A stretch of 41,632 nt of DNA from NCBI RefSeq assembly GCF_001647275.1, contig NZ_LRMM01000042.1, forward strand, positions 1-41,632. The letters are read 5' to 3'. A program made the position numbers and the translations under genes. Of the stretch, positions 431-29,519 are shown in pieces. The stretch is from Rufibacter ruber (GTDB lineage: Bacteria; Bacteroidota; Bacteroidia; Cytophagales; Hymenobacteraceae). Position 1 is the first letter of the stretch. Each line of letters starts with the position of its first letter. Below the pieces are notes generated by a model that worked only from the letters and a program-made list of their open reading frames with translations, had not been told where the DNA came from and did not search any database.

Positions 431-435
431 AAAAC

Positions 436-710: not shown

Positions 711-798
711 TTCCTCTGGATTTCAAGCAAGATGTCAAATTCTCTGCCTGCACTAATAGAAATTGTTTTTTCAAAGCACAGGAGAGGAGAGAAGAAGC

Positions 799-944: not shown

Positions 945-955
945 TTCTCTTCAAA

Positions 956-2910: not shown

Positions 2911-2950
2911 CGTGGTAGTGGTTAGTGAACGATGCAAAGGTGAGGGGCTC

Positions 2951-2983
2951 CTGCGCAGTCTTTTTGCGCAGGTGGGGAAAGAT
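2951..2983 (-). promoter_or_regulatory. Shared operator/promoter region of rsr
   Basis: Two TGCGCA half-sites (2952-2957 and 2965-2970) have starts 13 bp apart with a CTTTTT run between them. The same arrangement occurs before rtcB and the WYL regulator gene. In transcript sense, TTTGC begins exactly 13 bases after the second half-site, as at rtcB. It may be part of a degenerate -7 element (CACCTTTG against TAnnTTTG). No TTG is seen at the expected -33 distance, which would suit an activator-dependent promoter. Binding by the WYL protein is inferred. Confidence 0.75.
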
Positions 2984-3084
2984 TAAATTTTTTTTAAGTC
3001 TATTGGATAATAAAAAATGTGGATAAAATAATACTTGAAATGGGTTGTTGAAAAAACTAAATCCATATTTTTAAAGAAAAAACT

Positions 3085-5295
3085 ATGTATATATCTAAAT
3101 TCTACGCTCATAACTATAGAAGCCTGAAGAATGTTGAAGTAAGCTTCAAAAATGGAGTCAATGTTATTGTAGGAAAGAATAATTCTGGAAAGTCAAACAT
3201 CGTCAAAGGTCTTGATATATTATTAGGTGATAGATTTCCTAACTACATAACCTTCACTGATAATGATTTTTATACTGAAGAACATGTACGTGAATGTTAT
3301 GACTCAGATGGTAAAATAGTATTGAATGGGAATGATGTCGTTTTTGAACCTTATGAAAGTATAGAACAAAGTTTCTATTTGGAAGCCACTCTAGAGGGGA
3401 GAGATTTTGACGAAAATAAAATTAGAACTATAAAGAAAAAAACTGCTCTTTCTAAAATAAAGAGTTTTAATTCCTTATTTAAAGATGATAATGGAAATGT
3501 AAAAATAGACTATGAGTTTTTTCAAAACTTAGACGAGATAGATAACTCTAATAATATAGAAGAAATCATTCAGTATGGTAGAAATACCAAAACAAAATGG
3601 TGTAGTGCAGAAGAACTATTGCAGTTTCTTAAAAATTCTACAATCATTAAACTTTTCTTTACCAAAAATAAAGATGAGGACCAATCTGGTTATGGTATGT
3701 TAATGTGTGATTTGAATGGCGATTACTGGATTACACATTTTATTTCAAAAAAATTACGAGATTCACTGTTAACAACAGCTTTGATTGGAACCTTTAGAAG
3801 TCCAAAAGATGAATTAAGGAATGTTCATTATAGCTGGTTTGGAAAGTTAATAAAAGGCTTATGGGATCAAGGGAAAGACAAAGTTGATGACTCTGTTGGC
3901 GAACGAATTGAGTTGTTGATCCAGAAGAAAACAGTAGATATAAAAAAATTAGTTGATGGAGTATTTGATGATAATACACTAGACTTAAGAGAAATTCTCA
4001 TGAGAGCAATCTCTCACAAGAAGGTTAGTTTTAAATTATTAGATGATTCATCATTCGATTTATATAAAAATATAAGACTATTCGTGAATGATGGTATTGA
4101 TCGGCCTTTGACTGAAAAGGGATCAGGAATACAAAGTGCAATTATAATATCTCTGTTTTCTGAATTTTGTAAACAATTCCATAATAATAGTTCTTTGTTG
4201 ATTGCAGAGGAGCCTGAGTTGTTTCTGCACCCTCAAGCTAGAAGAGTGATTGCTGCAGAATTAAGTAAGTTTTTGAATACTGGAGAAGCTCAAAAGCGGC
4301 AGCTTATCATAAATACTCATTCAACTGAATTTTTGAAAAATATTTCCCCAGACTGTATAATCCGAATTTATAAACCAGAGGATAGTAATTATAGCCTAGT
4401 GTATCAGTTATGTGAGGATGTAAGTGGTGCTATTGGTAATGATTTAGTACGGCTATTATGGTCTAACAATTGTGAAATTTTTTTCGCAGATAAGGTAGTT
4501 CTTGTTGAAGGTGGTGAGCTTTACTTATTAAGTCCAATAGTGGATAAGCTTACTGGAGATAACCAGCTTTTAGATTATAATAATGTTTCTGTTATTAGAG
4601 TTAATGGAAAAGGAAACTTTATTACATATATTAAGATGCTTAATGAATTTAAAATTAAGTGGCTTGTATTAGGTGATTTAGATTGTTATAAGGATGAGGT
4701 AGGAAAAATCGTAAGACATTTGCAAATACAAGATATAGATGGTGATGTAGCTCTTGTTCAAAACGCTATTAAGAATATAGAAACAGATTATAGTAAAATT
4801 CAAGAAAGGAATAAGAAGATAGTAAAAAATACTGATGCTCAGCAGTTAAAAAGAGTATTCGAGCTTTTTGTGCATGGAGAAATAGAAAGAGATAACGAAG
4901 ACTTAATTCAAATAATACAGGAGATGCAGGATAAGTATAAGTTGAAAGATTATTATTCTGCTATTCAGGAGTCTGGATTATCTGAAAATTTTTCTAAAGT
5001 CCAGAAAGCATTGAAAAAGTGTAATGTATTTGTTTGGTCTAAAGGCGAGCTTGAAAATTATTATACAGATGCATCACGTGCTGTAAAAGGAAGTAAGGAT
5101 ATTGTTGCCCTGGAAATATCATATGCTTTAAAAGAAACAGATAATTCTGTTGATGATTTCTTCAATGAAGTTGATGAGTTAAAGGAGTTAGTTGTATCAA
5201 TATTTTCTGATATAAAATTAAACAATGATGAGATCGCCAAGGTCATTTCTACATATGGCGTTGTAGAAGAGGAAACTCAGCCTAGTGAAGAGTAG
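3085..5295 (+). CDS. OLD-family ATP-dependent nuclease (AAA ATPase plus Toprim)
   Basis: OLD proteins join an SMC/RecF-like ATPase to a Toprim nuclease domain and often serve in phage defence. The 736-residue product shows Walker A at about 30-37 (GKNNSGKS), a signature-like GSGIQSA near 346-352, Walker B LLIAEEPE near 371-378, and a switch His in NTHS near 411. The Toprim part has VLVEGGE (Glu about 475) and DLDC (Asp about 531 and 533). No UvrD-like partner follows, so it resembles the stand-alone class 1 type rather than the Gabija pair. The gene is visibly AT-rich compared with its neighbours and on the opposite strand from rsr, consistent with horizontal gain between rsr and the rtcB remnant. 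The target is unknown. Confidence 0.88.
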   Translation: MYISKFYAHNYRSLKNVEVSFKNGVNVIVGKNNSGKSNIVKGLDILLGDRFPNYITFTDNDFYTEEHVRECYDSDGKIVLNGNDVVFEPYESIEQSFYLEATLEGRDFDENKIRTIKKKTALSKIKSFNSLFKDDNGNVKIDYEFFQNLDEIDNSNNIEEIIQYGRNTKTKWCSAEELLQFLKNSTIIKLFFTKNKDEDQSGYGMLMCDLNGDYWITHFISKKLRDSLLTTALIGTFRSPKDELRNVHYSWFGKLIKGLWDQGKDKVDDSVGERIELLIQKKTVDIKKLVDGVFDDNTLDLREILMRAISHKKVSFKLLDDSSFDLYKNIRLFVNDGIDRPLTEKGSGIQSAIIISLFSEFCKQFHNNSSLLIAEEPELFLHPQARRVIAAELSKFLNTGEAQKRQLIINTHSTEFLKNISPDCIIRIYKPEDSNYSLVYQLCEDVSGAIGNDLVRLLWSNNCEIFFADKVVLVEGGELYLLSPIVDKLTGDNQLLDYNNVSVIRVNGKGNFITYIKMLNEFKIKWLVLGDLDCYKDEVGKIVRHLQIQDIDGDVALVQNAIKNIETDYSKIQERNKKIVKNTDAQQLKRVFELFVHGEIERDNEDLIQIIQEMQDKYKLKDYYSAIQESGLSENFSKVQKALKKCNVFVWSKGELENYYTDASRAVKGSKDIVALEISYALKETDNSVDDFFNEVDELKELVVSIFSDIKLNNDEIAKVISTYGVVEEETQPSEE

Positions 5296-5352
5296 ATCAT
5301 AACAGTGAGTTCCTACTGTTATTGAAATAGATTCTAAAACTGTGGGAACCTC

Positions 5353-5496
5353 TTATTCCCCCTCCAAATACTGCTCATCCCCACACATACCCACAATCTT
5401 CTGCGTGAAAGTCCCCACCACGTTCACCAGTTCCTGCTGGGCGGCCATAACCTGGTGGATGTCTTTGTAGGCCAAGGGCGCTTCGTCCAGGCCAGA
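5353..5496 (-). pseudogene. Orphan 3' end of rtcB (last 47 codons and stop)
   Basis: The minus strand encodes SGLDEAPLAYKDIHQV through DEQYLEGE and a stop, matching the end of the full RtcB at 22540-22683. By hand alignment 131 of 144 bases agree (about 91%). Most of the 13 differences are synonymous: only four codons change residue (G/R, Q/P, N/D, L/M). This pattern suggests the copies diverged while both were functional genes. Similarity stops abruptly at about 5496, where the sequence becomes unrelated. No start or catalytic part is present. Together with the full gene it forms a direct repeat bracketing the 17-kb carbohydrate segment. Confidence 0.9.
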
Positions 5497-5907
5497 GTTG
5501 ATCACTTATGCCAACCAGTGGCTGCTGCACGCTCAGCTCCTCTTTCTGTTTTTGGTCTGTTTTTCTGAAAACAGCCCAAAAACGGAAAGCCTAATTCCTT
5601 CTGCAGAGATCGCAACTGTGTTCAAAGGAAATAAAATTGCAATAGGTGTACATATAGGGGACTACTTGCTACTAACTTACCCATGCCGGCTAATCAGACA
5701 GATTGACCTTCCAATCAAACAGATCTCCTTCCTTCTTTTGCTCTTCTTATAGGTGCTCTTCACGTGAAGGAGGAACAAGCTATTAGAGGTTTGATTTTCA
5801 TTTTGTCACCATACTGGCTAAATGTGCGCAGCTGAATGACGAAATATTAAAAATATTCTTAAAAATTTAGGAAATATATTTTTTTACTCTACCTTTAGAT
5901 CGTTGAA
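5497..5907. other. Non-coding gap between rtcB remnant and gntR
   Basis: An 84-codon reading frame spans 5498-5752, but it runs through a dispersed palindrome, has no recognisable domain and no ribosome site, so it is not called as a gene. The second half is AT-rich and leads into the gntR promoter. Nothing like an integrase or transposase is present. Confidence 0.55.
5544..5587. repeat. Dispersed palindrome, copy 4
   Basis: Arms TTCTGTTTTTGG.CTGTTTT and AAAACAG.CCAAAAACGGAA. It lies in the gap between the rtcB remnant and the GntR gene. Confidence 0.7.
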
Positions 5908-5933
5908 TATGTATGAACATATAGACATATGTC
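5908..5933. promoter_or_regulatory. Putative GntR operator 1 (autoregulatory)
   Basis: The site begins TATGTATGAACATAT and continues with a further ACATAT half-site. A closely related site, beginning TATGTCTGAACATAT, lies upstream of susC at 6838-6863. It overlaps the ATG at 5929, which favours translation from 5944. Binding of the adjacent GntR protein is inferred from the shared sequence and position. Confidence 0.65.
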
Positions 5934-5943
5934 TTTTGAAGGT

Positions 5944-6677
5944 ATGAAGGTTTTTAACATAGATCATGGCAGTGCCATTCCTCTTCACCTACAGGTTGAG
6001 GATCTCTTGCGCGAACTTATTAAGAATCCTGAGTACCAGGAAGGCAAACTGTTACCCAATGAAGTAGCCCTGGCCAAACAGTTGGGTATTTCCCGTAACA
6101 CCGTGCGGCAGGCCACCAACAAACTGGTGTTTGAGCGCCTGCTGGTGCGCAAGAAAGGCGTAGGCACCACGGTGGCCAAAGACAACATCACCACCAAACT
6201 TGACAAGTGGTCCAGCTTCACCCATGAGATGGGGGAGAAGGGCGTCACGTTCCGCAACTATGAGATTGAGGTGGCCCAGGTAGAGGCAGATGAGGAAATA
6301 AGGCGGCTGTTTAACATTACCCGCAAGTCTAAAGTGGTTAAACTGGAAAGGCTGAGGGGCCTTGACACAGGCCCCGTGGTGTATTTCATCTCCTACTTTC
6401 ACCCCCGCGTAGGATTAACCGGCAAAGAAGACTTCACCCAGCCGCTGTATGACATGCTGGAGCGCACTTACCATACTGTGGCCTCAGTGTCTAAAGAAGG
6501 CATCAGCGCCATCTTGGCAGACAAAGAACTCTCAAAGAAATTAGAGATAGCCGTTGGCGATCCTGTCCTTTTCAGGAAAAGGGTAGTCTGTGACCCAGGC
6601 GCCGGCCTATTGAGTATAACCTTGGCTTTTACCGGGCAGATAAATTTACCTATACCATTGAGATAGAAAGAGGATAG
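5944..6677 (+). CDS. GntR/HutC-family regulator with UTRA domain (one-base frameshift)
   Basis: This is a ligand-responsive repressor or activator of the adjacent sugar locus. It has an N-terminal winged helix (SAIPLHLQVEDLLREL, then NEVALAKQLGISRNTVRQA) and a C-terminal UTRA effector domain that in the family binds a sugar phosphate or similar metabolite. ATG 5944 (MKVFNIDHG) is preferred; ATG 5929 lies inside the operator. As given, the frame goes off at about 6603 and would end at 6666 with a non-family tail. One extra C in GCC.GG gives DPGARPIEYNLGFYRAD, the usual UTRA ending, with a stop at 6677 and 244 residues. The missing base is probably a sequencing error. Effector unknown. Confidence 0.85.
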
Positions 6678-6837
6678 GCGTTTCCTGCCGGGCAGGAAGA
6701 TCTATGTACAGAACGTGTTGCTTTAATAAAACGTGCCTCCTTCATGCCTGGCTAGGATGGCGCGTGCAGGAGAGCGGGCACCTGAACACCTTCTTTTAGA
6801 CTGTTCCTGTTGGGATTAAGGCTTTTTAGGCTTCTTA

Positions 6838-6863
6838 TATGTCTGAACATATGAACATATAGA
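6838..6863. promoter_or_regulatory. Putative GntR operator 2, upstream of susC
   Basis: It matches the gntR operator over the first 15 bases with one difference (TATGTCTGAACATAT) and is followed by a second GAACATAT copy. It is 41 bp upstream of the susC start, a suitable place to control the whole 6904-22380 gene run. Confidence 0.65.
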
Positions 6864-6903
6864 TTATAGTTCCTTTTGTTTAACCACTGTTGCATACGTA
6901 CAT

Positions 6904-9900
6904 ATGATTTTCCATCAAAAAAGGTCTCTTGTTTTTGCGCTTTTCCTGGGCAGCTTGTGCTGTGGGTACAGTGGGCAAGCAAGAGCCGCCAGCCGATTAA
7001 GGGCTTTCCAAGCCCCGGCAACACGCACCGTCACAGGGAAAGTAACCTCTAAAGACGGGAACGAAGCGTTGGTAGGGGTGAGCGTTTCTGTAAAGGGTAC
7101 TACCACGGGTACCGTTACCAATGCGGCGGGTGAATACTCCATTGCGGTACCCGGAGATGATGCCGTGCTGGTGTTTTCTTACATTGGCTTTGTCACCCGC
7201 GAGATTCAGGTGAAAAACCAGTCCACCCTGCCGGTGGTCTTAAGTACCAATGCGCAGGAACTCTCACAAGTGGTGGTGATTGGCTACGGCACCACCACCA
7301 AAAGCGATTTAACTGGCTCTGTGGCCTCTGTTAAGTCAGAAGAAATTTTGGCTACGCCTACTACGTCTTTTGAACAGGCGTTACAAGGCCGGGCGGCCGG
7401 GGTGCAGGTCACCCAGACCTCAGGCAAGCCCGCGCCGAAGCCTCTATCCGGATCAGGGGAACCAGTTCCATCAACGCGGGCAACGAGCCCCTGTACGTGA
7501 TTGACGGCATGCTGGTGAGCAGTGACGGCAATGATATGGCCTTGGGGGTGAACCTGGGGCCGCGTATCAGTGCCCTGTCTACCATCAACCCCAATGACAT
7601 TGAATCTATTGAGGTGCTGAAAGATGCATCGGCCACGGCCATTTACGGTTCAAGGGGGACCAACGGGGTGGTGCTCATCACTACCAAGCGCGGCAAATCA
7701 GGTGTTGGTACCGTCACGTTTGATACCTACTATGGGGTGCAGCAGGTGGCTAATAAGTTAGATGTTCTGAACGCAGCTGAGTTCGCAGATTTGGTGAACG
7801 AAGCCAAAATCAACGCCGGCCAAACACCTATCTATAACAATCCCACCAGCCTAGGGGAAGGGACTGATTGGCAGGACGAGATATTCAGAACGGCTCCCAT
7901 GGCAAATTACCAGCTTTCCTTCGCCGGGGGCGATGACAAAACCAAATATGCCATTACGGGCGGCTACTTCACCCAGGACGGCATCATCAGAAACTCAGAC
8001 TTTAAGCGCTACTCTTTCAGAGCCAACCTGGACCGGGATCTGAGTGCTAAGCTCACGGTGGGTAACAGCCTGAGCTATGCCCGTATCACGTCTTCTGGGG
8101 TATTAACCACCACGGAGACCATTGTGCCGGGGGTGACTTCCTCTGCGTTGCAGTTCAACCCAATCCTGCCGGTGTACAACGCCAATGAGCCGGGCGGTTA
8201 CACGTTTGAGAACCGTGGCGGGAATTACTTAGGAAAGACCCTGGGCAATCCGGTGGCCGATGTAAATGAATTCACCTCCTATGGGGTGACTTCCAGAATC
8301 CTGGGGAACGTGTACGCCCGCTACAAAATTCTGGAGAATCTGGAGTTCAGGGCCAGCTTTGGGATTGATGGGTTCTCCTCTAAAGAGAATGCCTTTGGTC
8401 CTAACTTCCTGAAAAGAACCCAAGCCAGTAAGGGAGAGGCGTCAATAGGCACCGTGACCGGTCTTACATGGCTAAATGAGAACACGCTTACTTACAAACC
8501 AGTCATCCATGAGAACCATAAAGTAGATTTCTTATTAGGGTACACACTGCAGGAGTTTAACAACGAGAGCCTGCTGGTGATGGCGTTTGATTTTCCGGAT
8601 TCCCGCACCGGCTACCATGATATTTCTGCTGGCCTGCTGCCGCAGAAACCAGCCAACGCGGAGTCTAAGTGGAGCATGGTCTCCTACCTGGGTAGAGCCA
8701 ATTACACCCTGTTTGACCGCTTCCTGTTCACCCTAACGGGTAGGGTGGACGGATCCTCCAAATTTGCCGCTGGTAAGCAGTATGGCTTCTTCCCGTCTGG
8801 AGCGGTAGCCTGGCGTATCTCAGATGAAGCGTTTATGCAGCCGTTTACCTTTCTTAATGATTTGAAGCTGAGAACCAGCTACGGCATCATTGGGAACCAA
8901 GCCATTCCTCCGTATCAATCTCTGTCTTTGGTGGGAGCCTACGGACAAGGAGTGTTTAACGGAACAGAGGTATATACCGGGAGAGAGCCGCTCACCTACG
9001 CCAATAAAAATCTGAAGTGGGAGACCACCGCTCAGTTTGACATTGGAGTAGATGCTGCCTTCTTGAATAACCGCATCACGGTAACCGCAGATTACTACAA
9101 GAAGAAGACGTCTGATCTGCTGCTGTCTACCCCCATCCCGTACACCAGCGGCTTTAACTCTACTGTGCTTAACGTGGGAAATATCCAGAACCAGGGGGTG
9201 GAGCTGGACATCCGCACCATTAACACCAAAGGCCGCTTTGACTGGAGAACTTCGGTCAACTTTACGTTGAACCGCAACAAAGTCACCAACCTGAACAGCG
9301 AAGTAGACATTCTCATGGGTGGGGGCACGCTGCTGCGGGTGGGTGAGCCGGTAGGTACCTTCTACGGGTACATCTTTGACGGCATCTTCCAAACCGATGA
9401 AGAGGCGCGTACCAGTCCTGTGCTGAAAGGGCAAGAAGCTTCATCTTCTAACCCGGCGTCCCGCGCCCGCGCCGGTGACCGGAAGTACCGTGACATCAAT
9501 GATGACAAAGTGATTGATGAGAAGGACAGAACCATTCTGGGCAGTGCCCAACCTGATTTCACCTGGGGCATCAACAACAGCTTCTCCTTTAAGGGCATTG
9601 AACTGAGCTTTTTCTTCCAGGGATCGCAGGGGAACAAGATGGCTAACCTCAATCTGTTTGACCTGCAGAATTTCAACGGCCAAACCAACGTGCTGGCAGA
9701 GGCCGCCCTTAACCGCTGGACGCCCTCCAACCCAAGCAATGAGTACCCAAGAGCCTTGGCGTCAGGCAGCCTGGACAACGGTGTCTTTTCTTCAAATATA
9801 GTGGAAGACGCTTCTTACATCCGCCTGAAAAGCGTGACGCTGGGGTACCAGGTGCCCACCACCCTTACTCAGAAAGTGAAAGTGAAGAACCTCAGAATCT

Positions 9901-10055
9901 ACGCCAGCGCCACTAACCTCTGGACCATCACCAACTATTCAGGCTACGACCCAGAGGCTAACACCTTTGGACAGAGCACCGCCGTGTTTGGGGTAGACAG
10001 AGGCGGGTACCCGCAGGCGAAGACCTATCTGGTAGGGCTGAACATTGGGTTTTAA
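6904..10055 (+). CDS. SusC-family TonB-dependent outer-membrane transporter (one-base frameshift)
   Basis: It imports oligosaccharides across the outer membrane with its SusD partner, driven by TonB. It has an N-terminal signal, a carboxypeptidase-D-like domain (TVTGKVTSKDGNEALVGVSV), the region QVVVIGYGT, a plug domain with LYVIDGM and the SusC signature SIEVLKDASATAIYGSRG, and a long barrel ending in YLVGLNIGF. As given it is split in two frames overlapping at 7497-7500. Adding one G at about 7431 in CCCGCGCC restores GKPGAEASIRIRGTSSINAG and a continuous protein of about 1050 residues, normal for the family. The loss looks like a base-calling error. The gene is first in the locus, behind a GntR-type site, with susD 18 bp downstream. 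Confidence 0.92.
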
Positions 10056-10073
10056 TCTTTGAATGCTATAACC

Positions 10074-11555
10074 ATGAAGACATATTTCATCTCACTCAAA
10101 AAATGGGCAGCAGTGCTTTTGGCGGTACTGGTGTTGCCCTCCTGCCAGGATTTTCTGGAGGAGGACCCCAAGAATTTTGTGGCCATCACCAACTACTATA
10201 AAACCCCTGATGATGCCATTGCCGCGGTCAATGCCATTTACGCCTACCTCAACTCAACCAGCACCGGTTCTACCGCAGGAGTGTACCACAGTTCCTTCTG
10301 GGTAGCGGCTGGTCTGGCCTCAGATGAGCTGTTGAATGCCCATCCGTTTGCGCCTGACCTGGACCAGCTGGCTACTTTTACGCATGGTCCACAAAACGCA
10401 GCATTATTGGAAATCTGGGCCATGCATTACAAAGCCATCACTATCGCTAACATCGCCATAGAACGCATTCCGGGTATTGCCATGGAGGAAAACCTGAAGA
10501 ACCGGTTGCTCAATGAAGCCCGCTTCCTGCGCGGTCTGCTTTATTTCAATATGGTGCGCATGTTCGGGAGCATTCCGTTGCTGACCAAAGAAGTAGAGCC
10601 CTTAACCCCTGCGGTGGCTACCCCTGACCAGATTTACGCCCAAATCATTACTGACTTAACTGCCGCCGAAGCGCTCCCATTAAATTATGTGGCGGGCAAT
10701 GGGAAAGGCAGAGCCACCAGAGGTGCCGCAAAAGCCCTGCTGGCCAAGGTGTACCTCACCCGCAAAGACTGGGATAATGCCGCCAAAAAAGCAAAAGAGG
10801 TCATTGACTTAAACCAGTATGAACTGTGGGAAGACTTTGCTGATGTTTTTAAGCTGTCTAGCCGCAACGGGAAGGAAGCCATTTTCTCGGTTGGTTTTGG
10901 GGACCAAGGCGGAGCTATAAGTTTCTGGGAGGTGGGACAGTTCAATGTAAGGTTACTCCCTTCAGAACTAAGTGCTGAAGGTGTGGAAAATGCCCAAGGC
11001 TGGCAAATCCCTACCCTGTACCTGTACAATTCATATGACTTTAACGACCGGAGAAGGGAGGTCACTTTCTTAACCCAGTATGTGAATAGAAGCGGCGCGG
11101 TCACCCAGATAAGACCCTACATCCAGAAGTACTGGGACCGAGCGGCTGAGCCCAAAGGTAATGGGTCTGCCAACGACTTCCCGGTACTGCGCTACGCAGA
11201 TGTGCTCCTGATGTACGCTGAAGCTAAGAATGAACTTAATGACCAGGCCACTGCGCATGAGTACATCAATAAAGTGCGCAAGAGAGCGCGCTTTGACGGA
11301 ACGGAGTACCGCACCACAGTGCCAGACTATGTTAATCTAACCAAAGAGCAGATGCGCGCTGCAATCATAAAAGAGCGCGCTATGGAATTTGTGGCTGAAG
11401 GGCACCGGTGGTTTGATCTGGCCCGCACGGGTACTCTGGAAACGTTGGTGCCATTGGCTAAGCCGGGTGTGGTGCCTACGGCCAAGCACTATCTGTTCCC
11501 TATACCGCAACGGGAGCGTGATCTCAACCCTAACCTTCCGCAGAACAATTACTAA
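10074..11555 (+). CDS. SusD/RagB-family surface glycan-binding lipoprotein
   Basis: This is the lid partner of the SusC transporter, holding oligosaccharide at the cell surface. The ATG at 10074 gives a signal peptide and lipobox LPSC with Cys at residue 24; an in-frame TTG at 10059 is unlikely. Family features are the early NYYKTPDDAIAAVNAIYAYL stretch, TPR-like helices with NEARFLRGLLYFNMVRMFG, the late RYADVLLMYAEAKNEL and AINKVRKRA-type segment, and the ending HRWFDLARTGTLE, LFPIPQRERDLNPNLPQNNY. The length of 493 residues is normal. It follows susC directly and the ROK kinase starts 17 bp later. Confidence 0.95.
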   Translation: MKTYFISLKKWAAVLLAVLVLPSCQDFLEEDPKNFVAITNYYKTPDDAIAAVNAIYAYLNSTSTGSTAGVYHSSFWVAAGLASDELLNAHPFAPDLDQLATFTHGPQNAALLEIWAMHYKAITIANIAIERIPGIAMEENLKNRLLNEARFLRGLLYFNMVRMFGSIPLLTKEVEPLTPAVATPDQIYAQIITDLTAAEALPLNYVAGNGKGRATRGAAKALLAKVYLTRKDWDNAAKKAKEVIDLNQYELWEDFADVFKLSSRNGKEAIFSVGFGDQGGAISFWEVGQFNVRLLPSELSAEGVENAQGWQIPTLYLYNSYDFNDRRREVTFLTQYVNRSGAVTQIRPYIQKYWDRAAEPKGNGSANDFPVLRYADVLLMYAEAKNELNDQATAHEYINKVRKRARFDGTEYRTTVPDYVNLTKEQMRAAIIKERAMEFVAEGHRWFDLARTGTLETLVPLAKPGVVPTAKHYLFPIPQRERDLNPNLPQNNY

Positions 11556-11572
11556 TAAACTACTTGCTGAGT

Positions 11573-12523: not shown

Positions 12524-12529
12524 TCAGTT

Positions 12530-14308: not shown

Positions 14309-14315
14309 TCTCTTT

Positions 14316-15710: not shown

Positions 15711-15811
15711 GTTAAGAACACATTTCAGTACTGCTGTTCCTTCTTACAAAATCATCTTTACAGACCAAATTTTCACTCCAAACTGACTAACAAACTCGAA
15801 AGCTAATTCCC

Positions 15812-16627: not shown

Positions 16628-16646
16628 GATGTAAGCTCTCTTAGCT

Positions 16647-16692
16647 TTCCTGTTTTTGGGCTATTTTTCTAAAAATAGCCCAAAAACAGGAA
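16647..16692. repeat. Dispersed palindrome, copy 5
   Basis: This is the most perfect copy: TTCCTGTTTTTGGGCTATTT is mirrored to CAGGAA. It lies 19 bp after the lipoprotein stop, within the carbohydrate locus. Confidence 0.8.
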
Positions 16693-16813
16693 GTCAAGAT
16701 TTCCTCAAAAGTGGCTTTGGTGATTCTTGCCAAATGAACCACTTAAAATCTGCATCGACTTGCTTTCATTAATAATGAGATAATCCTTCTCCTTTTCTCC
16801 TAAATCCTTTTCA

Positions 16814-18046: not shown

Positions 18047-18076
18047 GTTTAGAGATTCTATTCTTTACTTCTTGGT

Positions 18077-18117
18077 TTCCGTTTTCCTGTTTTCTTGAAA
18101 ACAGCCCGAAAACGGAA
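18077..18117. repeat. Dispersed palindrome, copy 6
   Basis: Arms TTCCGTTTTC.CTGTTTTC and GAAAACAG.C.GAAAACGGAA, 30 bp after the DUF4185 A stop codon. Confidence 0.75.
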
Positions 18118-18186
18118 ATAGACCCTTAAGCACTAGAGGTTGAATCTGTCTCATTAAAATCATTTGAAACCAAGGTCACTTCTTCC

Positions 18187-19422: not shown

Positions 19423-19442
19423 GAGCAAAAGCTAAGCACAGG

Positions 19443-19485
19443 TGCGTTTTTGGCCTCTTTTGGTCAAAATAGCCCCAAAACAGAA
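19443..19485. repeat. Dispersed palindrome, copy 7
   Basis: Arms TGCGTTTTTGGCCTCTTTTG and CAAAATAG.CC.AAAACAGAA, 20 bp after the DUF4185 B stop codon; somewhat degenerate. Confidence 0.65.
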
Positions 19486-19517
19486 TTTATCTACTCAACA
19501 AGTGAATGCGTTGCCAC

Positions 19518-21068: not shown

Positions 21069-21141
21069 ATCATTTTCTTTTACCGCACCTTTTAAGCAGC
21101 GCATTCTCCAATAGCTTATCACTATCAAACAAAAGATAAAT

Positions 21142-22380: not shown

Positions 22381-22539
22381 TACCATAAAGATTCCTGTAG
22401 AGGATTTCTAAATGTTTCACATCCCTTTTAACAAAGACGGATGTTTGCTTTCTGTACTGTTGTGCCAAACAGGTCAAAAACAGAAGGTAGTATTAAAGCA
22501 TAGGTTTTACATCAAAGTTATACTAGAGGGCTTCTTAAT

Positions 22540-23964
22540 TCACTCCCCCTCCAGATACTGTTCATCCCCACACATGCGCACGATCTTCGGTGTGAAAGTC
22601 CCCACCACGTCTACCAGTTCCTGCTGGGCGGCCATGACCTGGTGGATGTCTTTGTAGGCCATGGGCGCTTCGTCCAGGCCAGAACCGATAAGCTCTACGC
22701 CCGCTTCCTCTAGATGCTGTTTCACCATGGCGGGGGAAAGGGTGTTCTTGGCCAGGGTGCGGGATAGCTGGCGTCCGGCCCCGTGCGAGGCGGAGTTCAC
22801 CGAGGCCGCCGTTCCGCGCCCGCGCACAATGAAGCCGGGGGCCGTCATGGAGCCCGGGATAATCCCCAGCACGCCCAGGCCCGCGGGCGTGGCGCCTTTG
22901 CGGTGCACAATCAGTTCCTGGCCCTGCGCGTCCAGCTCTTTCCAGGCGAAGTTATGGTGGTTCTCTACCAGAGCCAGCGGCTCCAGCGCCAGGGCCTGCG
23001 CCAGCCGCGCATGGATCTGGTGGTGGCACGCACTGGCGTAGTCGCCGGCCAGGTTCATGGCGAGCCAGTATTCCTGTCCCGCCTCAGAGTTCAGGTCCAG
23101 CCACGCCAGATGGCGCGCCTCCGGCGGGAGCGGGCACGCCTGCATGGCCAGCTTGGTGTAATGGCCCGCAATGGCCGCCCCCATGCCGCGCGAACCTGAG
23201 TGCGACAGCACGGCCAGGTATTCGCCCACGGGCAACCCGAACTCATTCTGCGCATCAGAGAGCGCCACCGTCCCGAACTCCACAAAGTGGTTTCCGCCGC
23301 CCGAGGAACCCAACTGCGCAAACGCCCGGTCCTTCAGACCGCGCAGCACGGGAATCTCCGCAAATTCCGTCCGGTCAATAACTGCGTGCTCCAGGGGTTT
23401 CTGGAACGTGGCCCTCCCGAAGCGGGTGTTGTCCAGCAGAATCTTCTTGAGGGTATCGCGCTCCCGTGTGATGAGATCAGCGGGGGCAGGGTAGAGGGTG
23501 AGGCACATGCGGCAGCCAATGTCCACGCCCACACCGTAGGGAATCACCGCGTTGCGTGTGGCCAGCACCCCGCCAATGGGCAGGCCGTAACCTTGGTGGG
23601 CATCGGGCATGAGGGCGCCCGCCACCGCCACGGGCAAGCGCATGGCCGTCTCCATCTGGCGTCTGGCGCCGTTCTGAATACCTGCCCCGTCATACACCGC
23701 AAACGGCAGCGGTGCTGGGTGCAGGGGAATCATGGCGGGTGTCTTAGGGGCCGTCAAGGCCTCGGCCAGCGGGGCCAGGGTGGCGTGCGTCAGGAACTCG
23801 GCGGGTTGCGCCAGGACCTGGGCCAACAGATGGCGTTGTTCATCCTGAGGCGTGGTGGCAAAGTGTTCCGCCAACAGGCGAAGGGCCAAGCCCATGGTTT
23901 TGTCTTGTGGGTAGCCTAGTGCCAGCAGGTCTTTGCCGGTGAGCGTGGAGGGGACGTGTGTCAT
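22540..23964 (-). CDS. rtcB: RtcB-family RNA ligase
   Basis: It joins RNA ends with 2',3'-cyclic phosphate or 3'-phosphate to 5'-OH ends, using GTP and Mn2+, and repairs cleaved tRNAs and rRNAs. The 474-residue protein has DAHQGYGLPIGGV (about 121-133), GVDIGC with metal-ligand Cys about 151, GGNHFVEF (about 223-230), LSHSGSRG with His about 255, NHHNF, and SASHGAGR whose His about 394 corresponds to the guanylylated His. All catalytic residues seem present. No RtcA cyclase or archease gene is in the window. A shared operator lies 46 bp upstream, the same as for rsr and the WYL gene. An orphan copy of its 3' end lies at 5353-5496. Confidence 0.95.
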   Translation of the reverse strand: MTHVPSTLTGKDLLALGYPQDKTMGLALRLLAEHFATTPQDEQRHLLAQVLAQPAEFLTHATLAPLAEALTAPKTPAMIPLHPAPLPFAVYDGAGIQNGARRQMETAMRLPVAVAGALMPDAHQGYGLPIGGVLATRNAVIPYGVGVDIGCRMCLTLYPAPADLITRERDTLKKILLDNTRFGRATFQKPLEHAVIDRTEFAEIPVLRGLKDRAFAQLGSSGGGNHFVEFGTVALSDAQNEFGLPVGEYLAVLSHSGSRGMGAAIAGHYTKLAMQACPLPPEARHLAWLDLNSEAGQEYWLAMNLAGDYASACHHQIHARLAQALALEPLALVENHHNFAWKELDAQGQELIVHRKGATPAGLGVLGIIPGSMTAPGFIVRGRGTAASVNSASHGAGRQLSRTLAKNTLSPAMVKQHLEEAGVELIGSGLDEAPMAYKDIHQVMAAQQELVDVVGTFTPKIVRMCGDEQYLEGE

Positions 23965-24009
23965 GGTTCAACGTGTTGGTTGGTTTACGCTGGCAAAGCA
24001 AAAGACCAT

Positions 24010-24043
24010 GTGCGCAGGCTTTTTGCGCAGGTGCAGGAAAGGT
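24010..24043 (-). promoter_or_regulatory. Shared operator/promoter region of rtcB
   Basis: Half-sites TGCGCA at 24011-24016 and 24024-24029 have starts 13 bp apart, with a CTTTTT run between, nearly identical to the rsr site and including the flanking GGTG and GGAAAG. In transcript sense TTTGC begins 13 bases after the second half-site, exactly as at rsr. No canonical -33 TTG is evident. Confidence 0.78.
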
Positions 24044-24060
24044 TGACATATTTTTGCAGG

Positions 24061-24103
24061 TGCGTTTTTGGCCTGATTTCAGAAAAACAGGCTAAAAACG
24101 GAA
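24061..24103. repeat. Dispersed palindrome, copy 8
   Basis: Arms TGCGTTTTTGGCCTG and CAGGC.AAAAACGGAA. It lies between the rtcB operator and the terminator of the upstream giant gene. Confidence 0.75.
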
Positions 24104-24126
24104 AGTGATTGGTCAGTTGTGCTATA

Positions 24127-24157
24127 AAAAAAGGCCAGAAAATGAATTCTGGCCTTT
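24127..24157 (-). terminator. Intrinsic terminator of the NHL/TIG gene
   Basis: On the minus strand AAAGGCCAGAA pairs with TTCTGGCCTTT around a short loop and runs into seven T residues. It starts 20 bp after the stop at 24177, so it isolates rtcB from the upstream gene. Confidence 0.85.
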
Positions 24158-24176
24158 GCTTTACACGAAGTGTGCC

Positions 24177-27100
24177 TTATAATATTGAAATCCTTTTCAG
24201 CACCTTTCCGCGTTGGGTTTCTATGATAAGCAAGTATAGGCCTGCCTGATGGTGTTGAAGATTCACCTCTATTTGCCCCGTCTGGGTAGTCGCAACTGCG
24301 GTCTGATATACCTGTTTGCCCGTTGAATCAAACACCTTGACAGATTGTACATCAAAATCAGCTTTGATAAAATCTACAATGAATTTTCCTGTGCTGGGAT
24401 TAGGGTATACTTGAATGGATTGGTCAGGGGTTAGTTCTTCAACGGTAAAGCTTTTGGTATCACGTCCGCCAAGGCCGGCCACCATAACATTCCCAGTAGT
24501 GGCTCCCCTAGGGACCCGCACTTTCAGAACGGTTTCAGATGCGCTCAATATCAATGCCTTAATACTTCCAAACATAACAGTGTCTTGCTCGCCAAAGGTA
24601 TTAAAGTGGTCACCTTTGAGCTCTACCACTGTTCCTACGCTACCTTGAGCCGGCAATATCTGTGTTAGTATTGGGGCGGGAATTACTTCAAAGGCCTTTG
24701 ATGCAGTCCCCCCGGGAGTGGTAACCTTTACAGTGCCTGAGGTGGCACCTGCCGGTACCCGCACCAGCAATTGGCTTTCACTGGCCTGGAGCACTTCGGC
24801 TGAAAGACTGTTAAAGTTTACGGTATTTCGCTGAGCCGTTGGCGCAAAATTGGTGCCTTGCAGGGAAAGGTTTCCGCCCACACGCTGTCTATTCAAGTTA
24901 AATCCAGAAATGACAGGGGGGGGCCAAACCTGATAGGTGCCAACGCTGGTAACCTGGCCACCCTTGGTTTGAATGATGAATTTATTTGAACCTGCCCCGG
25001 TGGGTATTTTAATAGTAACCGCGTTTGCTCCTATGCTTAAAATTTCACAGGTGAGCGTACCTAACATCACGCTTTCTACTAGTTCAGAAGTTAAATGATT
25101 TCCCTCTAGCGTTACCTCTGCACCTATGATGCCTTCAGCCGGGGCAAAGCGCGTCAAAATGGGCGGTTGGTACACGGTAAAGTTTGTGGTGCTGGAGCCA
25201 TTCCCGTTTTCTGTGACTACTTTTATTTTTCCGGAGCTGGCTCCGGTGGGAACTTTCACTTTCAGGGTGGTGCCGGTACTTTCTAGTACTTCAGCCTTGA
25301 TCTGGTTAAAAAAGACTTGATTGCCGGCGGCGGTGGGGGCAAATTTTGATCCTGTCAGGAGAACCTCTGCTCCAAATTTCCCCGCCCTAGGCGAAAAAGA
25401 AGAAAGTTCAGGGTGGTGCCACACCATGAAGAGTTCTTGGCTTTCTACCTTTCCGCCCAACGTCTTCACTTCCACCTTCCCTTTTAATGCCGCTTCAGGC
25501 ACTTGTACTTTTAAATAGGTGAGGGTGGCTTCCTGTACAGTGGCAGCTACTCCGTTAAAGGTAACTGTATCTTGTCGTGCTTCCGGTGAAAAATGGTTGC
25601 CAGTGATGGTAACAACTTCGCCAGGAACTGCCTCATTGGGTGTGATGGCAGTTATTGTAGGCTTTTGGTAGACAGTGAATTCTTCAAGGCTTGAAACTGC
25701 GCCGTCTGGAGTAACCACTTTAATCTTACCACTAACTGCAGTGGCCGGGACTATTGCTTTTATTTCAGTTGCGCTCGCCCATAACACCTGAGCGGCTATT
25801 CCATTGAAGGCTACTTTGTTTTCGGCGGCTACCGCCGAAAAGTTTTTCCCTGTGATCGTTACCGGGGTGCCTATGCGGCTTTGGATAGGGGAAAAACTGC
25901 TTATTGCGGGAGAGGCAACAATTTCACTGGCCTTCAGCTGCTGATCGGCTATAACCGGTGGCAAGTCATAGATGCGGTTCTGCGTGGTATTGGTTCTAAC
26001 TGGCTCATTAAAGTCAAAAAAGATATCAGCATAATTCTCAATCAGATGCTTCTCTGGTAGGTCTGCTTTAGGTTTGATGCTGAACTGGATGGCCCCATTG
26101 CTACCTGCCTGGTTGGTACCGCTGTCTGGCAGCATGATGTTATTGAAGGTGAAAGTAAGAATGGGTCTTTCTTTGCCCGAAACGGTGAGCCGGTACGGGT
26201 GAGAGACTGCGCCAATTTTAAACGTGCTCAAATCTAAATCTGATGACAGTGTGTCTACCACCACCACTTTGTAGGCTACATCATTGCCTGTATTCTGGAA
26301 CCGGATGGTGTATTTGAGCGGGGCATTGGTGGGGGTATAGCGTTCTGGAGTAAGGCCAACTGGAACTACCTGTTTGTCATTAGGATCAAAAGAGTCTGTG
26401 ATGGGAAGGCATTCCTCAGCTATTTCCGGTTCTGACTCATCTGGTTGATAAGCCAACATGGCAACATCTGGCAGGCCGGTTACATTGGCTTTCTGCATTT
26501 CAAGATTTGCACTAGCAATAGTTTTGTGAGGGTGCCCCTGGGGCTGATCTGCCTCTACTCTAACCACACGGCTGTCTGTTTGGAACCGAAGCACCAGGCT
26601 GTCGCCAGTGGCAAGTTTATATTTACCGGTCAGTGATAGTGCTAAATTTTGATACACTCTATAAGTAAGGCTATCAGACATGTTCGCCACCCCTTTATTG
26701 CTAATGACAAACCTTGCCTGACCCTCTTGGGTAACTTTGCCAAGTACTCCCATGTAAGAATTATCCCAATGAGGCTTTGGCGAATAGATATTGTTAGGGG
26801 TGATCCAAACTTTAGTACAAACGGTAAGGCCCCGTATGGACGGATCATCACAGGATACCTTGTCCCTAATGAAAATAGTGCCAGATTGATTGGGGTTAAG
26901 ATCACCTACTAAAAAAACATAATTTCCTTTAGCATCTATGTAATGAGGGATAGATGCTGAAATAAAATGTATCTGTGGCGGCAACTGTACTGTTACCTTA
27001 GCTTGGTAGGCTGTTGCAAACCCTTTATTAGCATAGGTAACAGTTGTAAGATTCTCCATACACCTACGGCGGCGGTTAGAGGTGATGTTTACAGTAAGAA

Positions 27101-29153
27101 AAGGTTTACCTACTTCTTGAAATCCAAAATCAGGCCCTCTTTTTGTATTACCTAAGTTTGAAAAATATACTGTCTGAGGTGTGGCGCAAATATTTTGCAT
27201 CTGGCTCATCAGGTCTGGAGGAACCAGTTGTTTGACTGTAAATCTCCCTACACCTACTTCAAGCCTATATTCTCCCTTTTCATTCGTTACCGCATACCTG
27301 GGGCCAGGTTCTGCACTTACTATAATTCCGGCTAAACTATATTCAAGTTCTCCTTTATTGCAATCATTATTTGCGTCAACATAGATCTTACCTGTTATAT
27401 AATTAGGGAGAGAAATATCTTTGTAAGTGAAAATGGCAAGGGTACCGTCTGTTTCACGGGTTACATACGTGTTGCCTGTCTTGTTAGGTGTGATGCTACC
27501 TTTTTCTTCGGAAACCTCTTTCTGCAGCTGGCCAGAGGAGCTAAATATTCTATAAAGCCCCAGTCTTTTATTTATATGCCTAAAAGCAATGTACACTTTT
27601 CCAGCATTATCTACACCAAAATTGATTGGGTGAACGTCTGGTGCCACTTCTCCAGTGTAATATTCAAGCACTTTCTCACCAGAGGGGGTAAATTTCTTTA
27701 TTCTAGAATCTGGCCAGCTCAATGTATAGGCATTTCCTTGGCCATCAAACTCTAATAAGTTAATATTATTTAAGATCTCTGACCAAGGGCCTCTGGTACC
27801 TAGGGGTTCAAGTAAAACTCCTTCTGGGTTTATTTGTTGAATTAGTTTACTCTCTAAATCATGCACTCTGATAATACCTGCGTGGTTCACTGAAATGCCG
27901 CCAGGGTAAAATATTCTATCATTTACATTCGTGCTTAAGTTTATCTTGAAACTCTTGAGAAAACTACCGCTGCTGCTAAACTTTTGAATGCGTAGGGAAT
28001 TTTCTTTGTGTTCAAGATGGTATATATTCCCTGAATTGTCTACCGCAAGGTGATTGGTCGTAGAATAATACTCATCATTAGGGAAAATATTTGCTTTTAT
28101 TTTTAAAAGGAGATTACCAGTAGCATCATATTTGAGTATTTCCATCCTGTTGTTTTCATAGACATATAGATTGCCCTGCTGATCAAATGTTGGTATAAAA
28201 AAACTCTTTTTAAATTGAAAGGTCTGTAGCAAATCTCCGGAAGGGGAAAATTTTTTAAAGTAAGATTTAGACTGGCCAGATGAAGGTGTTGGTCTACCGT
28301 CTAGCAAATAAAGATTGCCGGTTTCGTCTAAGGCCAATTTTAAATGTGGCCCCACTAAAAGATCCTCATTATTACCAGTATGGTGAATGGGTTTAATGAA
28401 CACTCCATTACTGTCAAACTGTAGTATTTTTTTGTTGAAAATTAAGTAAATGCCCCCAAATTTGCCTACTGCCAATGAAAGCCCTCCAGTATTTGCTTGG
28501 CCCCACCCATTTTGGTCAAAAGAGAAAGATCCCAATACATCACCATTTGGTGAAAATTTGTGCACAAGCTTTTCCACATCATCAAGCACATATAGATTTT
28601 GTTGTGCGTCAAAACCTATATCAGCAACAGCGCCTAATGTTCCCCCCGTTGCAATTGAATTCCCAATTTGCTGAATTAAGGTACCACTCTGATTAAATTT
28701 GAGGACGGTATTTTTGGTTTTATCAGCTATAAAGACATTTTTTTGTTCATCAATGATTATTGAACCTATGCTCAATATTCCTCCTGTATTAGTACTTGAT
28801 GAACCAAATGTCTGTTGTGGTTGGCCATCTATGCTAAATTTGGTGACGCAGTTACATGATAAATCAGCTGCATATATATCACCAGCATTGTCAAGTGCAA
28901 TGGATGCATTATTTGTTAGCGGGCTATTTTTACCAATATCAATTCTCTCAAGAACTTTGCCCGTATTATTTAAAACAGTAACACTAAATGGCTCTAAAAT
29001 GTATAGGTTGCCTGCTTTGTCAATGGCTATATCATGCGGGGTGCTTATAGTTGTACTAATGATGCTCTCTTTCTGAAAATCAAAGTCTTGGGAAAAGGTT
29101 AGGTGAAAGTGGAATAGCAGAGCTAAAAGGAGAAGATATCTTTGCATCATCAA
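24177..29153 (-). CDS. Giant secreted NHL/TIG protein with type IX sorting domain
   Basis: The 1658-residue protein has a signal peptide (LLLLALLFHFHLTFSQ), NHL/beta-propeller repeats over about 30-530 (repeated DNAGNIY and DKAGNLY-type strands), and an SdrD/carboxypeptidase-like domain (YITGKIYVDANNDCNKG) near 585-650. A DUF11-like region (YTIRFQNTGNDVAYKVVVVDTL) follows, then six IPT/TIG repeats (for example ITAITPNEAVPGEVVTITG). A type A Por secretion C-terminal domain (VYPNPSTGKFIVDF to KVLKRISIL) ends it. It is likely exported and anchored by the type IX system as an adhesin or matrix protein. No link to RNA repair is visible, although it sits between rtcB and the WYL gene. Three consecutive ATGs occur at the start. 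Confidence 0.88.
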   Translation of the reverse strand: MMMQRYLLLLALLFHFHLTFSQDFDFQKESIISTTISTPHDIAIDKAGNLYILEPFSVTVLNNTGKVLERIDIGKNSPLTNNASIALDNAGDIYAADLSCNCVTKFSIDGQPQQTFGSSSTNTGGILSIGSIIIDEQKNVFIADKTKNTVLKFNQSGTLIQQIGNSIATGGTLGAVADIGFDAQQNLYVLDDVEKLVHKFSPNGDVLGSFSFDQNGWGQANTGGLSLAVGKFGGIYLIFNKKILQFDSNGVFIKPIHHTGNNEDLLVGPHLKLALDETGNLYLLDGRPTPSSGQSKSYFKKFSPSGDLLQTFQFKKSFFIPTFDQQGNLYVYENNRMEILKYDATGNLLLKIKANIFPNDEYYSTTNHLAVDNSGNIYHLEHKENSLRIQKFSSSGSFLKSFKINLSTNVNDRIFYPGGISVNHAGIIRVHDLESKLIQQINPEGVLLEPLGTRGPWSEILNNINLLEFDGQGNAYTLSWPDSRIKKFTPSGEKVLEYYTGEVAPDVHPINFGVDNAGKVYIAFRHINKRLGLYRIFSSSGQLQKEVSEEKGSITPNKTGNTYVTRETDGTLAIFTYKDISLPNYITGKIYVDANNDCNKGELEYSLAGIIVSAEPGPRYAVTNEKGEYRLEVGVGRFTVKQLVPPDLMSQMQNICATPQTVYFSNLGNTKRGPDFGFQEVGKPFLTVNITSNRRRRCMENLTTVTYANKGFATAYQAKVTVQLPPQIHFISASIPHYIDAKGNYVFLVGDLNPNQSGTIFIRDKVSCDDPSIRGLTVCTKVWITPNNIYSPKPHWDNSYMGVLGKVTQEGQARFVISNKGVANMSDSLTYRVYQNLALSLTGKYKLATGDSLVLRFQTDSRVVRVEADQPQGHPHKTIASANLEMQKANVTGLPDVAMLAYQPDESEPEIAEECLPITDSFDPNDKQVVPVGLTPERYTPTNAPLKYTIRFQNTGNDVAYKVVVVDTLSSDLDLSTFKIGAVSHPYRLTVSGKERPILTFTFNNIMLPDSGTNQAGSNGAIQFSIKPKADLPEKHLIENYADIFFDFNEPVRTNTTQNRIYDLPPVIADQQLKASEIVASPAISSFSPIQSRIGTPVTITGKNFSAVAAENKVAFNGIAAQVLWASATEIKAIVPATAVSGKIKVVTPDGAVSSLEEFTVYQKPTITAITPNEAVPGEVVTITGNHFSPEARQDTVTFNGVAATVQEATLTYLKVQVPEAALKGKVEVKTLGGKVESQELFMVWHHPELSSFSPRAGKFGAEVLLTGSKFAPTAAGNQVFFNQIKAEVLESTGTTLKVKVPTGASSGKIKVVTENGNGSSTTNFTVYQPPILTRFAPAEGIIGAEVTLEGNHLTSELVESVMLGTLTCEILSIGANAVTIKIPTGAGSNKFIIQTKGGQVTSVGTYQVWPPPVISGFNLNRQRVGGNLSLQGTNFAPTAQRNTVNFNSLSAEVLQASESQLLVRVPAGATSGTVKVTTPGGTASKAFEVIPAPILTQILPAQGSVGTVVELKGDHFNTFGEQDTVMFGSIKALILSASETVLKVRVPRGATTGNVMVAGLGGRDTKSFTVEELTPDQSIQVYPNPSTGKFIVDFIKADFDVQSVKVFDSTGKQVYQTAVATTQTGQIEVNLQHHQAGLYLLIIETQRGKVLKRISIL

Positions 29154-29476
29154 AGTGTTATATAATTATCAAAATATATAAAGCTAGTATTTAAAGAAAG
29201 AGGTGTCTCCCTAAGTGAAAGAATGCTTTGGCTTTTAAATTTCAGTGAAAAGTCTCCCAAAATAAAAATCCCAAAATCTTATTAACATAGAGTTTATCAC
29301 TTCCTAGTAAAGATATATGATTTTAATCAGGTTACTGTAACTCATTTAGTTAAATATAAGCTCGTATTCTGGGTAAGGTTTGCTTATGATTTATATTGGG
29401 CCTCCAGTGCACGTAGTCTTTGTTGAAATTGCTTTCCCCTTGTTTGACCTTTTAATTATACATAGGAAAGCGGATA
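29154..29476. other. Divergent intergenic region, giant gene and WYL gene
   Basis: AT-rich leader with no coding potential. It must hold the promoter of the minus-strand giant gene, but no clear TTG-N19-TAnnTTTG match was found by eye. The WYL operator lies at its far end. Confidence 0.4.
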
Positions 29477-29519
29477 CTGCGCAGGCTTTTTGCGCCGGAG
29501 AAAGTTTTTTCTAACTTTC
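29477..29519 (+). promoter_or_regulatory. Operator and promoter of the WYL regulator gene
   Basis: Half-sites TGCGCA (29478-29483) and TGCGCC (29491-29496) are spaced as at rsr and rtcB. A Bacteroidetes-type promoter overlaps: TTG at 29490-29492, a 19-bp spacer and TAACTTTC at 29512-29519, ending 16 bp before the ATG. The -33 element lies partly inside the second half-site, so binding there would block RNA polymerase, suggesting autorepression. The motif faces the same plus-strand direction as at rsr and rtcB, so its orientation relative to the gene is reversed. Confidence 0.75.

Follow-up and report, generated by a model that had tools for sequence, protein, structure and literature searches.

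What would join an rsr gene, an rtcB gene and the gene of a WYL-domain regulator, dispersed over 27 kb of the Rufibacter ruber genome, into a single response? The stretch analysed here (the window) comprises positions 1 to 41,632, read on the forward strand, of contig NZ_LRMM01000042.1 (assembly GCF_001647275.1), part of a 5.50-Mb draft genome in 166 contigs. An initial annotation, made from the letters of the window, had noticed paired half-sites ahead of the three genes and proposed a shared operator. Our results make it probable, on the evidence of sequence comparison, that an RNA-repair regulon is switched on at a composite promoter by a WYL activator resembling DriD of Caulobacter crescentus, and the window would hold the core of this regulon, namely rsr with Y-RNA-like genes, rtcB and the regulator gene. 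The features concerned are:

2951-2971, minus strand: rsr operator, CTGCGCAAAAAGACTGCGCAG on the rsr strand, A-run polarity, 40 bp before the ATG
2935-2942, minus strand: -7-like box of rsr, CACCTTTG, 8 bp past the rsr operator
1375-2910, minus strand: rsr (Ro60 homologue), Pfam TROVE; the vWA_Ro60 match is weak and under its cut-off
24010-24030, minus strand: rtcB operator, CTGCGCAAAAAGCCTGCGCAC on the rtcB strand, 45 bp before the ATG
23994-24001, minus strand: -7-like box of rtcB, TTGCTTTG, 8 bp past the rtcB operator
22540-23964, minus strand: rtcB (RNA ligase), Pfam PF01139, E 9.9e-81
29477-29497, plus strand: WYL-gene operator, CTGCGCAGGCTTTTTGCGCCG, opposite (T-run) polarity, 38 bp before the ATG
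29489-29492, plus strand: TTTG inside the WYL-gene operator, a candidate -33 element
29512-29519, plus strand: possible -7 box of the WYL gene, TAACTTTC, 19 bp past the operator-internal TTTG
29536-31206, plus strand: WYL-WCX regulator fused to a PhyH-type 2-oxoglutarate dioxygenase, with Pfam WYL, WCX and PhyH in one chain

A composite promoter of fixed geometry and polarity

In each of the three sites the half-site starts lie 13 bp apart with a CTTTTT run between them, as had been described, and each site stands ahead of its gene, although the distances to the ATG are 40, 45 and 38 bp rather than the 38 to 46 bp first given (the rsr start is the ATG at 2910, the listed open reading frame (ORF) beginning further upstream). 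At the WYL gene one half-site is altered (TGCGCCG). Comparison with relatives extends the common element beyond the operator: read on the rsr/rtcB strand, the composite site is CTRCGCAAAAAnnYTGCGCAN, followed at a constant offset by the TTTG of a -7-like box. In Flavobacterium psychrophilum the main sigma factor uses TAnnTTTG as its -7 box, at -12 to -5 (PMC9723704).

Operator-like sites were picked without regard to their flanks in 85 loci (the window, L054, L057, L058, L059, L061, L063, L072 and L074-L150, sites with less than 30 bases of flank being skipped; in the operator listing for relatives L060, L062, L066, L071 and L073 were dropped as copies and L070 was left out). Of the 117 sites obtained, 106 have a TTTG starting at offset 12 on the A-run side, where every other offset has at most four, and the highest count at any offset on the T-run side is seven; that is, a conserved site overlapping the -33 region at a fixed distance from the -7 box of its targets is present. 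In the register of the -7 box the operator occupies about -41 to -21, the expected place of a -33 element, and the rsr and rtcB promoters have no recognisable -33 TTTG.

Polarity is constant as well. The A-run side faces rsr each time (23 of 23) and rtcB in all 27 cases that have an operator, the T-run side faces the WYL gene in 58 of 58 cases with a recognised operator, and in L058 a single divergent site stands between rsr and the WYL gene, each in its expected polarity. On the T-run side a TTTG is already part of the operator, and a TAnnTTTC-like box can be seen by eye 19 bp past it in the window, L058, L059, L061 and L062, and 21 bp past it in L063; read in the same way in the window and six relatives, this -7 box is weaker than those of rsr and rtcB. 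The shared operator of the initial annotation is real and stronger than claimed, but the polarity and the fixed -7-like element had been missed, and it is better called an activator-type site that replaces the -33 element at rsr and rtcB and is reversed at the regulator gene.

This geometry also bears on whether the WYL protein could control the same regulon as a repressor that blocks the promoter and is freed by a damage signal. WYL repressors of defence systems exist, operator and promoter overlap at each of the three genes, and at the WYL gene the operator covers a fair -33/-7 pair. However, a repressor site would work without strict phasing, whereas the -7 box keeps one spacing (106 of 117) and does so on one side only; the rsr and rtcB promoters without a recognisable -33 TTTG suit activation, and the nearest folds of the WYL protein, DriD and PafBC, are activators. 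We consider repression unlikely.

Occurrence of the site in the genome and the class

The composite pattern TRCGCAAANANNYTGCGNA-N13-TTTG, with no mismatch, has 28 exact matches in 22 of the 395 genomes of a class sample that includes this genome, and the reversed control has none; the window accounts for two of the 28, at rsr and rtcB. These two are the only perfect matches in this genome. Within three mismatches it also contains the far side of the WYL-gene site (two mismatches) and two chance-like places (three mismatches), and the reversed control one. The earlier statement that no other gene has the motif holds genome-wide in this composite scan, within the limits of a draft assembly, and the other RtcB-family matches of this genome (contigs C78 and C135) are without the site.

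The half-sites by themselves are less telling. With one mismatch allowed, TGCGCA-N7-TGCG has 8 matches in the window against 2.77 +/- 2.00 expected, and 2 of 100 shuffles reach 8; the short pattern is only moderately unusual there. A whole-genome scan with TGCGCA-N7-TGCGC, without mismatches, recovered the three known sites and one other, with none for the reversed control, and an arithmetic estimate gives a few chance matches of this 11-base pattern genome-wide. The fourth site (C2:62007) was rejected: its spacer is unrelated and it lies outside the composite even with three mismatches. Among relatives, the short pattern is present in 25 of 39 genomes, pattern and control both occurring at unrelated places, which makes it weak on its own; window shuffles, genome scan and relatives together led us to reject it as proof. 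It is this commonness of the short pattern that speaks for the sites being chance or a repeat element with no regulatory role. The composite, however, stands at 28 matches against none and is conserved across Bacteroidota ahead of the same gene families; chance is ruled out as the origin of the sites, and we give this explanation practically no weight.

Genes behind the sites

If the gene behind a site is taken to be the longest frame that opens with an ATG no more than 700 bp away, the 26 exact matches outside this genome lead to RtcB in ten cases (one at 685 bp), to Rsr in two, to a band-7 gene in five (about 570-650 bp away; two called by Pfam and three by likeness of the first residues), and once each to RlaP, a T4-type RNA ligase, Hen1 (684 bp) and a tRNA-like gene. 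RNA-repair families thus stand behind 20 of the 26 sites, in addition to the one tRNA-like gene. In the first locus set, the A-run side of 105 TTTG-bearing sites leads to rtcB in 30, rsr in 22, an RlaP-type nucleotidyltransferase in 11, an RNA ligase in two and single ORFs in ten (in part spurious frames across RNA genes); the remaining 30 have no nearby ORF, a few lying at contig ends. In Rufibacter, Pontibacter and relatives, the RlaP-type genes and WYL-PhyH are arranged divergently. From the composite promoter present at each, we infer common control of rsr and rtcB, both of which are encoded in the window.

Genes of no recognised family also stand behind sites. The 461-residue gene behind the second site of genome G028, a full composite, has neither a Pfam match over cut-off nor an NCBIfam match; the 241-residue gene behind L169 and the 306-residue gene behind L176 have no Pfam match. 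Genes without a Pfam match over cut-off stand behind full composites in L057 (3167-4552, minus strand), L141 (about 11119) and L120, where a Cys-type tRNA-like gene stands between the composite site and the gene. Those behind full composites are candidate new RNA-repair genes. No name could be assigned to the genes behind L162 and L175, and the L055 and L056 sites of genome G015 were taken as chance, lying inside or at the end of reading frames with no TTTG where it is expected.

Association of the sites with the WYL gene

Six of 38 relatives have a full-length WYL-PhyH gene, and in every one of these a site (at most two mismatches) is found upstream of the WYL gene and at rtcB, rsr or both; in G028 one site is common to rsr and the WYL gene. 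A scan of named species found 440 relatives, of which the best 80 were kept as loci, their records all being labelled Bacteroidota bar a few with odd metagenome labels. In the class sample 47 of 395 genomes encode a WYL orthologue (E up to 1e-80); of the 22 genomes with an exact composite, 21 do. Since many sites adjoin the WYL gene, which makes co-occurrence trivial, distant sites (more than 0.8 kb from the WYL gene or on another contig) were counted separately. The orthologue is present in 9 of the 10 genomes with a distant site, our own included, versus 47 of 395 (Fisher 2.1e-8, uncorrected for kinship); the count becomes 8 of 9 without our own genome and 7 of 8 if G298 (0.86 kb) is also removed. 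RtcB is present in 87 of the 395 genomes (42 of 47 with the WYL gene and 45 of 348 without it), and among these RtcB-bearing genomes sites are found in 19 of 42 with the WYL gene versus 1 of 45 without (Fisher 9e-7, likewise uncorrected). Membership of the WYL protein in the regulon, first argued from its sequence and position, no longer depends on position alone.

Two paralogous WYL genes have variant sites, TGTGCA-N7-TGCACA in L022 and TGTTCA-N7-TGAACA in L018, each at the same spacing from a -7-like box. These variant palindromes (at 1378 and 1466 in L022) retain the promoter geometry, and half-site and regulator may therefore change together while the geometry stays. Genome G015 has no WYL orthologue at E 1e-60; in the fetched stretches its rsr and rtcB are apparently in pieces, with operators still recognisable. 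Both genes look rearranged in L053 and L054, which belong to this genome. In R. ruber itself RlaP has no match, and the RlaP side of the WYL operator reads TATG where TTTG is expected. Read as natural losses, G015 and the present genome agree with a link between the WYL protein and the regulon. Neither this genome nor any of the 47 class-sample genomes with the WYL gene contains a match to RtcR (PF06956); across all 395, five have some match and three have one over cut-off. The idea that a WYL protein stands in place of RtcR fits these counts.

Could the site instead be bound by another regulator, the WYL gene being merely one of its targets? Binding by the WYL protein is argued indirectly, the site stands at the WYL gene as it would at any target, and an exact composite is missing from 26 of the 47 genomes that encode the WYL protein (the search pattern is a strict one, from which the operator of G034, for example, deviates). 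Against this, the polarity at WYL genes (58 of 58) is opposite to that at target genes (50 of 50), distant sites track the WYL gene in 9 of 10 genomes, the two paralogues with variant half-sites keep the same geometry, and that geometry resembles DriD's. Control by another protein seems very improbable, and a single RNA-repair regulon under the WYL protein, as originally proposed, is the best-supported reading, with RNA-repair families as targets at 20 of 26 sites.

The WYL protein and its proposed mode of action

The WYL and WCX domains of the protein are over their Pfam cut-offs. A helix-turn-helix (HTH) domain ahead of them is predicted both from helices of a structure model and from its match to DriD and PafBC, which Foldseek aligns with it over about 340-350 columns; model and fold search were made on an orthologue of the window protein. 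DriD (8tp8) stands at the top of the Foldseek list (E 2.5e-14) and PafBC (9fnd) at rank 7, and PafBC is also matched by profile. Neither is among the best 50 rows of VIA-align, which are taken up by the dioxygenase domain, and their being missing there says nothing against the likeness. The metal triad and distal arginine of the PhyH domain are conserved in proteins of more than 480 residues (H444 in 34 of 34, D446 in 32, H543 in 29 and R554 in 33). In the window copy the equivalents of H543 and R554 are out of frame. By comparison with six relatives, its PhyH domain is out of frame at 31120-31206 (plus strand), and the broken 3' frame may be an assembly error or a real break.

From these features we infer binding by the WYL protein, activation, autorepression and an RNA signal, as follows. 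A regulator dimer would bind the 21-bp pseudo-palindrome, whose two half-sites suggest a homodimer. At rsr and rtcB the site would take the -33 position, 8 bp upstream of the -7 box of a promoter with no good -33 element of its own, and the bound regulator would hold RNA polymerase on this poor promoter in the fashion of DriD and PafBC. Binding of a nucleic-acid signal of RNA damage by the WYL domain would turn the repair genes on. The site upstream of the regulator's own gene points the other way, and its T-run would give the -33 TTTG, so that the bound regulator should not activate this gene and may repress it while activating the divergent one.

A number of observations weigh against activation by the WYL protein at these sites. 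Eleven of the 117 operator sites, including that at rtcB of G018, have no TTTG at the usual place; for 18 rtcB-like hits and 25 WYL genes in the 85 loci no operator was recognised with one mismatch allowed, both counts pooling paralogues, contig ends and variants; and the -33 and -7 elements of the WYL promoter depend on reading by eye. Five of the 26 outside sites lead to a MoxR ATPase (685 bp), to unknown genes (two) or to nothing nameable (two), and seven named genes start 570-690 bp from a composite site. To the WYL-bearing genomes without an exact composite must be added G399, with a composite site and no WYL match at threshold (its RtcB match is also weak), and the co-occurrence tests are uncorrected for phylogeny. 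Four of six paralogues (L019, L020, L021 and L023) have no variant site upstream, and among orthologues L016 and L017 have no site upstream and L015 a weak one only. The regulator gene of the window has both a broken 3' end and a changed half-site. No Pfam HTH family matched the protein, and superposition of whole chains with DriD and PafBC is poor, with a target TM (template modelling) score of about 0.4-0.5 and a root-mean-square deviation of 14-21.

A further step from the proposed activation by a DriD-like WYL protein is possible, and we advance it tentatively, as rather less than an even prospect. The WYL domain would sense broken RNA such as tRNA fragments and be the first WYL activator to respond to RNA rather than DNA damage; the regulon would add to the repair enzymes diverged tRNA-like arrays, serving as decoys or reference substrates for anticodon nucleases, and the fused dioxygenase would check the signal or clean RNA ends.

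Y-RNA-like and tRNA-like genes

Five Y-RNA-like units lie 3' of rsr and fold with closing stems. They were found by their common ends; a 5'-end pattern with guessed spacing matched one unit only.

55-955, minus strand: five Y-RNA-like units, all with the ends GGTGCCGT...GTCGCC; approximate spans 955-795, 720-598, 512-430, 398-240 and 215-55

Matches to YrlA at 284-352 and 827-895 score 34.6 and 27 bits, under the gathering score of 69. The 9-base Y-RNA 5' motif is repeated 3' of rsr in L059, L061, L074, L076, L077, L080 and L081.

Several A-run sites without a nearby ORF lead to tRNA-like genes. A Tyr-type gene lies 84-99 bp from the site in L093, L101, L103, L105, L116 and L118, a Phe-type gene stands behind the site in L166 and a Cys-type gene in L120, and arrays begin 297-846 bp from the site in L133 (ten genes), L136, L102 and L119. 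The arrays of L083 and L098 lie 3' of WYL-PhyH with no operator of their own in view.

L133, 1749-3126: tRNA-like array
L136, 8256-9449: tRNA-like array
L083, 8202-10259: tRNA-like array
L098, 13373-15493: tRNA-like array
L102, 6214-7380: tRNA-like array
L119, 8545-9096: tRNA-like array

ARAGORN names 96 tRNA-like genes in 1.386 Mb, in 32 of 81 loci; for comparison, Infernal, a different program, gives 223 tRNA matches in six genomes of about 26 Mb in total, arrays included. Ala, Val, Thr and Trp types are named by ARAGORN in none of the scanned loci, a few anticodons being unclear. For the L133 and L136 arrays, all 23 tRNA matches outside contig C130 of genome G433 were fetched, and from G434 20 regions, of 38 matches. 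Nine of the 15 array genes have a tRNA of the same anticodon elsewhere in the fetched sequence, at 51 to 72% identity, and 15 ordinary tRNAs compared between the two array genomes are 91-100% identical. The Leu-type array gene has 74 bases versus 83 and no long variable arm, and members common to the L083, L098, L088 and L091 arrays have an altered T loop (by eye). The other six array genes (both Lys-type genes and the His, Asp and Pro types of L133, and the Gly type of L136) have no counterpart in the fetched sequence, where a second copy is missing for four array anticodons of G433 and one of G434; some of these genes could be the genome's only copy, or the assembly may be incomplete. Ordinary spare tRNAs are an unlikely reading of the members with a counterpart, as judged in two genomes by ARAGORN and identity, and may be the right one for members without another copy. 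For many array members, a maintained tRNA mimic seems a better description than a spare tRNA.

Comparison with known systems

DriD, a WYL activator triggered by single-stranded DNA, has the same HTH-WYL-WCX order as the present protein and is its top Foldseek match. According to a preprint (PMC12340889), DriD sites overlap the -35 element at one distance from the -10 element, and DriD activates the operon divergent from driD and not driD itself. As with DriD, there is here a pseudo-palindrome of about 20 bp that covers the -35/-33 region and keeps a set distance to the -10/-7 box, and a regulator gene divergent from its target through a common site, from which activation is suggested by analogy. 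Unlike DriD, the predicted targets are RNA-repair and not DNA-damage genes, many orthologues have a C-terminal dioxygenase, the phylum and the promoter type (-7/-33) are different, and the likeness is one of geometry. PafBC of mycobacteria, supported by profile and fold matches, also shares HTH-WYL-WCX; it recognises a motif around -26 and sits between the promoter and sigma domain 4 (sigma adaptation; PMC11804915). PafBC is a heterodimer with one HTH on the -26 motif and acts in DNA damage, whereas the paired half-sites here suggest a homodimer and the genes are those of RNA repair.

The Salmonella operon rsr-yrlBA-rtcBA brings Rsr, Y RNAs and RtcB under one damage-responsive RtcR switch (PMC7790460). 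Its regulator is the sigma54/CARF-AAA+ protein RtcR, for which this genome has no match, and the genes here are dispersed with one site each rather than forming a single operon. A 2016 survey by Burroughs and Aravind reportedly covers RtcB and ATP-grasp ligases, RlaP, Hen1, Rot/TROVE with Y RNAs, and band-7 with tRNA-like RNA, and the components behind the sites are of the kinds that it is said to describe; we know of no operator or regulon map in it. A literature search, in sources available in part, returned no description of the operator, of a WYL-controlled RNA-repair regulon or of a WYL-PhyH fusion. As far as sequence can tell, the system is a new pairing of known repair parts with a known activator class, its promoter code being spread over the phylum.

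In the literature consulted, work on bacterial RNA repair has mostly followed the RtcR switch. Across Bacteroidota, control appears to lie with another class of regulator, whose promoter code allows the targets to be listed from sequence and points to unknown genes of the regulon, and to Y-RNA-like genes and tRNA-like arrays as parts of the response. The switch has the appearance of an RNA-damage alarm system not mapped before. The Sm-like fold of the WYL domain has been proposed to bind RNA (PMC6789036), and the regulon provides a direct test of RNA-damage sensing by WYL domains.

Neighbouring features of the window

On the T-run side of the rsr operator, 113 bp away, lies an OLD-type ATPase-nuclease gene (3085-5295, plus strand), possibly a defence gene. 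In L078 (Pontibacter flavimaris), near 119, an OLD-type gene is found 155 bp from a like operator, also on the T-run side. A TonB-receptor-like gene at 6904-10055 (plus strand) consists, by eye, of two overlapping frames, 6904-7500 and 7497-10055, and is perhaps broken or misassembled. A tRNA-Glu (UUC) gene lies at 33573-33645 on the minus strand.

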